From Bacteroidia bacterium (GTDB taxonomy: Bacteria; Bacteroidota; Bacteroidia; Chitinophagales; JAUHXS01): a stretch of 64,000 nucleotides of DNA. Position 1 is the stretch's first letter; the number at the start of each line of letters is the position of its first letter. The DNA lies in contig JAUHXS010000003.1 of NCBI GenBank assembly GCA_030426955.1, positions 248,001 to 312,000 of the forward strand, given 5' to 3'. This document shows positions 15,458 to 23,472 of this stretch, one piece after another. The notes beneath the pieces were generated by a model, which was not told where the DNA came from, ran no database searches, and worked only from the letters and a program-made list of their open reading frames with translations. A program made the position numbers and the translations under genes.

Positions 15458-16351
15458 ATGTCTTCACAAGCTTGGGTTTATCTCGGATTATTCTTAGCCA
15501 ATTTAATATATGCGGGCAATTACACGATTGCTAAAGAGGTAATGCCTGAATATTTGCAACCTTTTGGCTTTATCTTATTAAGAGTAATTGTGGCTTGTGT
15601 CATGTTTTGGTTGACGAGCCTATTTTTTCAAAAGGAAAAAGTTGAGAGGAGGGACTTATTAAAGCTAGCTCTGTGTGCAGTTTTTGGTGTGACGATCAAC
15701 CAGTTGGCATTCTTTTCAGGTTTGGCATTGACCGTTCCGATAAATGCCTCCATTATTATGGTGACAACACCAATTTTAGTTTTGATTATTTCCATGTTGT
15801 GTTTAATTGAAAAGCTTACAATTTTCAAAGGCATAGGTATTTTGTTAGGTGCTTCTGGAGCCACTTTTTTGGTACTGCGAGGTGGTGGTCCACAGATGAG
15901 TGCAGATACCTTCTGGGGAGATATCTTGATATTGGTCAATGCAATTTCATATGGGATATATTTAGTTCTAGCAAAACCATTGATGAAAAAATATCATGCA
16001 TTAACGATTGTAAAATGGATATTCCTTTTCGGAGCTATTTACATTTTGCCTTTTGGATATAGAGATTTGTTAGTTGTAGAGTGGAATGAGCTTTCATGGC
16101 AGATATGGTCGTGCATAGCATACGTGATTATTGGAACATCTTTTATTGCCTATTTGCTAAATACCATGGCATTGAAATATGTAAATGCATCTGTTGTAGG
16201 AGCTTTTATATATCTACAGCCATTTTTGGCAGCTATTATTGCCATATCTTTTGGAAAAGATCATTTGGATAGCACAAAAATTATTGCAGCTATATTGATA
16301 TTTTCTGGTGTCTTTTTGGTGTCATATAGCAGAAAAGTAAATGCTAATTAA
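15458..16351 (+). CDS. EamA/DMT-family transporter
   Basis: Inner-membrane transporter of the drug/metabolite superfamily, 297 residues with ten predicted transmembrane helices in two EamA repeats (residues about 5-140 and 150-290). Typical marks are ANLIYAGNYTIAKEVMP in helix 1, ITPILVLIISM-like segments in helix 4 and Y.LVLAKPLMKKY at the second repeat. Substrate unknown. It overlaps the next gene by 11 bp. Confidence 0.85.
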   Translation: MSSQAWVYLGLFLANLIYAGNYTIAKEVMPEYLQPFGFILLRVIVACVMFWLTSLFFQKEKVERRDLLKLALCAVFGVTINQLAFFSGLALTVPINASIIMVTTPILVLIISMLCLIEKLTIFKGIGILLGASGATFLVLRGGGPQMSADTFWGDILILVNAISYGIYLVLAKPLMKKYHALTIVKWIFLFGAIYILPFGYRDLLVVEWNELSWQIWSCIAYVIIGTSFIAYLLNTMALKYVNASVVGAFIYLQPFLAAIIAISFGKDHLDSTKIIAAILIFSGVFLVSYSRKVNAN

Positions 16352-16844
16352 TAAAAAAAGACATATTGTATTTGGGGTTATTATATTAATTCTTGGACTC
16401 AGCTTTTGCATAAATCCTAAGGCAACTTGGCAAGCACCACAAAATATTTTAGGAAATGCATATGCTTCAATTATAGAAGCAAGGGTTTTATCAGAATATA
16501 ATTATGATGATGTTATAATTTATGAAACAGATCGTGCTTACTTAGGGTTTACATTAGGAGAACATATCTTTTTAGGGAAACAGGCATCTTTTAATGGAAA
16601 TATTTACACGCATGAATTTGGGCACGTTGTGCAAAGTCGATCTTGGGGTTGGCTTTACTTACCTATCATTGCGATTCCAAGCTTTGTTACTTCAGCCTTT
16701 TCTGAAAAGGGATTTCATAACAGAACATGGTATGAGAGAGATGCAAGTCAAAAGGGACCTGAATATTTAAAAAAGCTTGATCCGGAATATGTCCCAATCG
16801 GCGGATGGAGAAGATATGAGTGGTTATTTGATCAGAAGTTGTAA
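16341..16844 (+). CDS. Small membrane protein with HEFGH zinc-metallopeptidase-like motif
   Basis: A 167-residue protein with a hydrophobic N-terminal segment (about 9-24) and a second at about 104-122. Residues 91-95 are HEFGH, an HExxH zinc site, in the context YTHEFGHVVQSRSWGWLYLP. A conserved-looking acidic residue follows in WYERDAS (about 130-136), resembling the Tyr-Glu-x-x-Ala stretch near such sites in toxin and YD-repeat proteins that share the HE[FY]GH.[IV]QS motif. It overlaps the DMT gene by 11 bp. Whether it is an active peptidase is not known. Confidence 0.65.
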   Translation: MLINKKRHIVFGVIILILGLSFCINPKATWQAPQNILGNAYASIIEARVLSEYNYDDVIIYETDRAYLGFTLGEHIFLGKQASFNGNIYTHEFGHVVQSRSWGWLYLPIIAIPSFVTSAFSEKGFHNRTWYERDASQKGPEYLKKLDPEYVPIGGWRRYEWLFDQKL

Positions 16845-19171: not shown

Positions 19172-19744
19172 TTACTTGCGAAAAAGATCAATGGCAATCA
19201 AGCGCTCCAAAGAATCTACAGAAATACTTCTTGTCTGGTTTTTTTTGAGATCGATTATAAACGCTGAGCTTTTCATATCTGGTTTTAGAGTAGCTTTATA
19301 AAGAAGCTGTTTTTTTTCGTCATTATAGATTCCAGATATGATGTATAGCTCCTTTGCATCAATAGCAGAATCTTTTACTGCATTTTCTAATTCTAGCCAA
19401 TTCTTTTTTATGGTATCATTTACGAGAATTAAATTACATTGCTCTAATGTAGCTATCAAAGCTTCTTTTGACCATCTAAAATCAGCAGAAGGAGCTAATT
19501 GTATAGTATTATTAGGCACTTGTTTATTGGTATTAAAATAACCCATGGTTTCTTTTCTAGTAAGCTGATAAGACACCCATTGATTAGATGAGTCTATGAT
19601 ACATCGGGCAAACCCTTCATATTTGTGTAGCTTTCCATTGCAATCAGGAGCACCAGTGAAATAAGCTTGATTAATGGTGCTATACAGAATAACTGTAATG
19701 ATAATAGGAATTAAAAAAAGTAGTAGTAATAACTTTCCTCTCAT
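19172..19744 (-). CDS. Membrane-anchored protein resembling an inactive NUC1 (DNA/RNA non-specific endonuclease)
   Basis: A 190-residue protein with one N-terminal membrane helix (about 5-25) and an extracytoplasmic domain. The order WVSYQLT, LAPSADFRWSKEAL, NWLELENAVKD, LYIISGIYND matches the fold landmarks of NUC1 nucleases (vsY.L, DRGHLAPAAD..WS, W..LE..V, iyvvtG). The catalytic DRGH directly before LAP is NTIQ here, and the metal-binding Asn before the W..LE helix is also missing, so nuclease activity is unlikely. Family resemblance is by eye, not by a profile search. It is probably cotranscribed with the phosphatase downstream. Confidence 0.55.
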   Translation of the reverse strand: MRGKLLLLLFLIPIIITVILYSTINQAYFTGAPDCNGKLHKYEGFARCIIDSSNQWVSYQLTRKETMGYFNTNKQVPNNTIQLAPSADFRWSKEALIATLEQCNLILVNDTIKKNWLELENAVKDSAIDAKELYIISGIYNDEKKQLLYKATLKPDMKSSAFIIDLKKNQTRSISVDSLERLIAIDLFRK

Positions 19745-19880: not shown

Positions 19881-20042
19881 ATGAACAAGTCAATTATACA
19901 ATATGCTAAAATGCGAGCTGAGCAAATCAGAAAAGAACAATTAAAGGTTCAAAGCTTGAGTTCAAGTTTTTTAAACGATGAATCCTTAAGTAGTGCTTTA
20001 GATAGCATTCTTTCTGCTGCAAATAAGCTGAAAAAGGCATAA
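19881..20042 (+). CDS. Small hypothetical protein (53 residues)
   Basis: A 53-codon ORF with ATG start and TAA stop in the gap before parC, beginning MNKSIIQYAKMRAEQ and ending ANKLKKA. It is hydrophilic and predicted helical, with basic N- and C-terminal parts around a Ser-rich middle. It is 27 bp from the parC ATG and could be its operon leader gene. Coding status is inferred from its length in a short gap, start position and sensible composition. No function recognised. Confidence 0.45.
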   Translation: MNKSIIQYAKMRAEQIRKEQLKVQSLSSSFLNDESLSSALDSILSAANKLKKA

Positions 20043-22945: not shown

Positions 22946-23257
22946 CTAAGCAAAGTGTTTTTTTATTTCTTTAAATAATCTTTTCTGATCTTGACGGCTA
23001 TCAAAAATTGTGATCACTAAAATTTCATCAGTTTTTACTAAGTAATAAGCTGAGTTCTGTTTGCTAATTACGAGCTTCCTAATATCTGGTCTGATCTTAC
23101 TTTGGGGGAATACTAGGGGCGATTTTTTAATTAAAGTGAGTTTCTTATTAAGTCTTTTGAGAAACTTTTCTCTACTGGCTTCTGACCAGTTAGAGTCAAT
23201 ATAGTCTAGGATTAACTCAAGCTTATATGATGCTAGTCTAGATAACTTTACTTTCAT
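22946..23257 (-). CDS. RelE/ParE-family toxin
   Basis: Toxin of a type II toxin-antitoxin pair, about 103 residues from the ATG at 23257 (MKVKLSRLASYKLELI), which overlaps the antitoxin stop as ATGA. The helical start with LILDYID, the basic KR.N.K segment and the C-terminal ITIFDSRQDQKRL fit ParE toxins. ParE proteins act on gyrase and RelE on ribosome-bound mRNA; sequence alone favours the ParE-like branch but does not settle the target. It sits between parC and citrate synthase and is translationally coupled to its antitoxin. Confidence 0.8.
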   Translation of the reverse strand: MKVKLSRLASYKLELILDYIDSNWSEASREKFLKRLNKKLTLIKKSPLVFPQSKIRPDIRKLVISKQNSAYYLVKTDEILVITIFDSRQDQKRLFKEIKKHFA

Positions 23258-23472
23258 GAAACTCTTTTGAGAATGTCTTCCCAATCTTCTGTTTGACCAT
23301 TCTCAATTTGCTTAATACCAAAGTCTATCTCCTCTTTCTCAGCTTCTGTAAGCTCTAACCAAAAGTCCTCATTTTTGCTTAAGAGAGTTTCTCTCAATTT
23401 ATTGATCAGAGCTTCATTCTCGATACCCAATATTGCTTTGATTAACTCTATTTTTGATGATTGAATATCCAT
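23254..23472 (-). CDS. Antitoxin of ParE-type toxin-antitoxin pair
   Basis: A 72-residue acidic protein upstream of the toxin and overlapping it by 4 bp. It opens MDIQSSKIELIKAIL and carries DFWLELTEAEKEEIDFGIKQIENGQTED-like C-terminal text, the pattern (D.W.EL...E...I..G...I..G) of short antitoxins paired with ParE/RelE toxins in Bacteroidota. It probably neutralises the toxin by direct binding and autoregulates the operon. Confidence 0.75.
   Translation of the reverse strand: MDIQSSKIELIKAILGIENEALINKLRETLLSKNEDFWLELTEAEKEEIDFGIKQIENGQTEDWEDILKRVS

Follow-up and report, generated by a model that had tools for sequence, protein, structure and literature searches.

A predicted membrane-anchored NUC1 pseudo-nuclease encoded beside a TPR/SpoIIE phosphatase gene in a Bacteroidia bacterium

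The window analysed here, a stretch of 64,000 nucleotides from a Bacteroidia bacterium, contains a 190-codon open reading frame (ORF) at the position given in the initial annotation, and we place it on the minus strand (Table 1). A NUC1 match is the only Pfam domain in the 190-aa product. Its N-terminus reaches a hydropathy maximum of 2.72 at residues 6-24, and residues 2-24 form a helix in the AlphaFold2 model; judging by hydropathy, the domain behind this putative anchor would face the periplasm. The next gene on the same strand starts 62 bases downstream, with no terminator-like site found between the two, and encodes a phosphatase with a signal-like N-terminus, TPR repeats, one transmembrane segment (about residues 430-449) and a SpoIIE/PP2C domain; the orientation and adjacency of the two genes fit an operon. 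On the upstream side the plus strand carries a 53-codon ORF (19881-20042), which is without a Pfam match and lies immediately upstream of the gene for a topoisomerase IV/gyrase A-type subunit.

Table 1. Features of the putative pseudo-nuclease gene and the neighbouring phosphatase gene, in positions of the window
Feature	Position	Strand	Basis or remark
Putative membrane-anchored pseudo-nuclease, 190 aa, whole ORF	19172..19744	minus	ORF list, PF01223, clean profile, codon usage
Predicted N-terminal membrane anchor or uncleaved signal, residues 2-24	19673..19741	minus	hydropathy, helix in model
Degenerate NUC1 domain, residues 36-190	19175..19639	minus	VIA-align to EndoG/EXOG over these residues, Z about 16
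DRGH site, reading NTIQ, residues 79-82	19499..19510	minus	alignments
LAPSADFRWS retained, residues 83-92	19469..19498	minus	same letters in many relatives with intact DRGH
Lys113 in the metal-binding Asn column	19406..19408	minus	alignment
TPR/SpoIIE phosphatase gene, 718 aa	16953..19109	minus	Pfam TPR and SpoIIE, hydropathy; functional link unproven

Judged from its sequence, the 190-aa protein is a descendant of the NUC1 (Endonuclease_NS) family. The Pfam profile PF01223 (Endonuclease_NS) matches it at 24.6 bits as compared to a gathering cut-off of 23, a narrow pass (E 2.2e-05), and on genome reading frames the same profile scores 22.6 bits for the stretch alone and 23.7 with its neighbours. 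A clean NUC1 profile, made from 146 Bacteroidota NUC1 domains with the query excluded, gives 50.2 bits in an alignment spanning residues 83-189, whereas none of 1000 shuffled copies exceeds 5.8 bits. With phmmer the only PDB sequences matched, and weakly (E 0.012), were the nuclease entries 2o3b and 1zm8 (Anabaena NucA); searches of NCBIfam, PHROGs and PADLOC returned noise-level matches only. The motifs follow one another as W56VSYQL, L83APSADFRWS, W116LELE and I135ISG, the same order as in NUC1 nucleases, and this alignment together with the significant matches to both profiles agrees with the initial annotation, which had recognized the order vsY, LAP.AD..WS, W..LE, ..vvtG in the sequence. 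In its own genome (completeness 97.4%) the protein is the sole match to PF01223.

The predicted structure points the same way. Built with 54 relatives, the AlphaFold2 model has a pLDDT of 84.7 and a pTM of 0.78, and Foldseek ranks human EXOG first for it. When superposed by VIA-align, the model resembles EndoG CPS-6 (Z 17.6, rmsd 2.7, 167 residues), NucA (Z 16.1) and Serratia nuclease (Z 15.3), and the autotaxin nuclease-like domain is matched with Z 14.1. The single-sequence prediction, made without an alignment, fails (pLDDT 43.3, pTM 0.29), and thus the NUC1 (EndoG/Serratia) fold of this protein is a prediction resting on its homologues, which keep the active-site motif.

The mechanistic roles of the NUC1 active-site residues come from work on Serratia nuclease and EndA. 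In our alignments the columns of D-R-G-H are occupied by N79-T80-I81-Q82, the very replacement that had been read from the letters, with Gln82 in the column of the catalytic His. The reported loss of the metal Asn likewise stands, as Lys113 occupies the column of the Asn that binds the metal in the Serratia enzyme. Lys124 replaces the Arg that follows the W..LE motif, the R.NDF motif has lost its Arg, and two deletions, both preserving the reading frame, have removed a segment ahead of the DRGH site and the one containing G.N.VS.P. Kept are LAPSADFRWS, Asn104, W..LE and the C-terminal SVDSLE helix, and Asp88 and Glu120 of the NUC1 family are also present.

DRGH is described as a typical signature of the NUC1 family in an excerpt of PMC6384898. 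Among the 156 distinct related ORFs pooled from all fetched loci, every one of the 155 that cover the site has RGH or KGH (the 156th, a fragment, starts at a contig end), so the loss of the motif is unusual and unique among the ORFs examined; in the metal-site region, an Asn lies 2-5 residues ahead of a Trp in 153 of the 155. That the protein would be catalytically dead is, on these replacements, well supported, and the same can be said of its initial description as a membrane-anchored dead nuclease of the NUC1 family, for which profile, alignment and modelled fold all speak. The net charge of the domain is +3 as compared to a median of -7 in 146 relatives, a positive charge that hints faintly at nucleic-acid or phosphate binding.

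The gene itself appears intact. Its codon score is 0.156 in frame, whereas none of the five other frames exceeds 0.078; 66 gene pieces of the same length span 0.098-0.260, which includes the in-frame value, and a synonymous-only codon score is also ordinary; such normal codon usage speaks against a long-decayed pseudogene. An orthologue was not found: besides its own gene, the matches at E<=0.001 are larger NUC1 ORFs, aligned mainly from residue 82 onward. With the host's own genome included, matches occurred in 7 of 59 genomes of relatives, 50 of 396 of the order, 34 of 395 of the class and 7 of 395 of the phylum, in samples that overlap; part of the matched ORFs were fetched, and those fetched were checked for RGH/KGH. 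None of the matches listed comes from another genome of the host's own family. Single-protein scans of genome contigs and viral contigs found no orthologue, alignment scans provided 80 genome loci (the best 80 of 252 relatives) and 8 viral loci, and a further search, with A3, listed 194 of 396 genomes as having a NUC1 match, with 30 loci fetched, 28 of them besides the host's own copy and a locus designated L029. In the tree the end branch of the pseudo-nuclease is very long (3.51 as compared to a median of 0.16), which also fits relaxed constraint. Its placement beside L029, with 96% SH-aLRT, was set aside, as the program flags long branches meeting.

Taken together, these observations lead us to consider it probable that the gene encodes a lineage-specific, periplasm-facing NUC1 pseudoenzyme that has been retained for binding or as a scaffold. 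Its ancestor would have been a Bacteroidota NUC1 nuclease from which the catalytic His, the active-site Arg and the metal Asn disappeared, together with two internal segments; the fold's core would have been preserved, along with LAPSADFRWS and the SVDSLE helix at the C-terminus. The N-terminal helix would hold the protein in the inner membrane with its domain in the periplasm, and the likeliest non-cutting role may be that of a binder or scaffold for nucleic acid, a nucleotide or a protein partner; we infer both this binding role and selection for a non-catalytic role. Since the genome holds no other NUC1 match, the protein is unlikely to serve as a subunit that partners an active NUC1 paralogue. 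Orphan status, the long end branch and the alignment-dependent fold count against the pseudoenzyme reading.

A second reading is that of a decaying relic, a nuclease that died recently and whose frame is still open for want of time, and the lost catalytic residues, the internal deletions, the very long end branch and the missing orthologue are all compatible with it. We nevertheless regard a relic as unlikely, as 190 codons are open despite the divergence, the deletions keep the frame, codon usage is typical of the genes of the window, and the core and the C-terminal motif remain in register. It is highly improbable that the protein is still an enzyme whose active site has migrated or is of a different kind; Asn104, Glu120 and Asp88 of the family would be available to it, but the His and the metal Asn have given way to Gln82 and Lys113, the Arg after LE to Lys124, and the R.NDF Arg is gone. 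Errors are possible in a multi-contig assembly, and an assembly or frameshift artefact could in principle conceal an intact motif, yet this is scarcely credible here: RGH or KGH is absent from every frame of the minus strand in the region, so that no intact motif is hidden by a frameshift, and the open frame has normal codon usage.

Alternatively, the pseudo-nuclease might be the periplasmic sensor or ligand binder of the adjacent phosphatase, its signal passing through the TPR part in the periplasm and on to the PP2C domain in the cytoplasm. Such a role would suit the common strand, the short gap and the lack of a terminator-like site described above, and by its hydropathy the TPR part would lie in the periplasm, as would the pseudo-nuclease domain. 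We think it quite unlikely all the same, given that the host's own genome holds 16 SpoIIE matches (the phosphatase neighbour included) and that a SpoIIE-like ORF lies near NUC1 in 2 of the 146 fetched loci, one convergent and one about 3 kb off, neither operon-like; many of these loci have flanks of only ~1.5 kb, from which more distant neighbours would escape. Conversely, 11 other phosphatase-family loci, chosen among the matches to the phosphatase (seven from genome G009, two from G006 and two from the host's own genome), had no neighbouring ORF with a hit to the NUC1 profile at E<=10, and G009, of the same order, has 49 phosphatase matches and no pseudo-nuclease match. The pair is therefore not a recurring system in our sample, and of the coupling proposed at the outset the adjacency holds and the recurrence does not, no second example having been found; a lineage-specific link is possible. 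A sensor coupled to the phosphatase is unproven and not the reading we favour, and we are more doubtful still of its specific form, a periplasmic receptor that would detect nucleotides or nucleic acid outside the cell and pass the signal to the membrane-spanning TPR/PP2C phosphatase encoded next to it.

With the Bacteroidota NUC1 or DNA/RNA non-specific endonucleases (PF01223) the protein has in common the profile, the modelled fold, LAPSADFRWS, W..LE and SVDSLE, but it is much shorter than their open frames, mostly of 400-440 aa or about 300 aa, and is without DRGH, the metal Asn, the later Arg and two segments, one ahead of DRGH and one around G.N.VS.P. Dead NUC1 domains are documented from the animal ENPP proteins, and the nuclease-like domain of ENPP1-3, autotaxin included, resembles the 190-aa protein in having a NUC1-type fold without the catalytic residues, as far as excerpts of PMC5030157 and PMC6826961 describe it: the former states that the ENPP domain structurally resembles non-specific endonucleases and is probably inactive, its catalytic residues not being conserved, and the latter terms the autotaxin domain inactive. 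The ENPP domain is C-terminal to a phosphodiesterase and packed on it (in NPP3 with a large interface to the catalytic domain, according to an excerpt of PMC6052110), whereas the pseudo-nuclease would be stand-alone, membrane-anchored and bacterial. The ENPP1-3 domains are the nearest known dead NUC1 domains, and we do not claim one shared dead ancestor. Fungal Dis3/RNase II pseudonucleases, in the part of PMC8097288 available, offer the example of a dead nuclease kept as an RNA-binding protein; that family is unrelated to NUC1 and serves as an analogy only.

Within the open-licence literature we found neither a bacterial NUC1/DRGH pseudo-nuclease nor a report of a Bacteroidetes TPR/SpoIIE phosphatase. 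A free-standing, membrane-anchored dead NUC1 protein in a bacterium, as the sole NUC1 match of its genome, would show that binding alone can be enough for this nuclease fold to be retained, but as long as neither relatives nor a phenotype turn up, an isolated case with no orthologue is a curiosity.

We also note several features of the phosphatase family and of other genes of the window. The phosphatase family is apparently expanded in G009, where several copies lie close together on one contig, and a phosphatase paralogue in the host's own genome (L200, G000:C11:359593-361595, minus strand) appears split into two open frames of 698 and 77 aa, through either a frameshift or disruption of the copy. 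Elsewhere in the window, the plus strand at 16341-16844 encodes a 167-aa protein with a hydrophobic N-terminus and an HEFGH motif, which matches eCIS_core below the threshold (19.5 bits as compared to a cut-off of 22). A ParE-family toxin-like ORF lies at 22946-23284 on the minus strand (PF05016, 28.1 bits as compared to a cut-off of 23), and the gene adjoining it presumably encodes a protein resembling citrate synthase.
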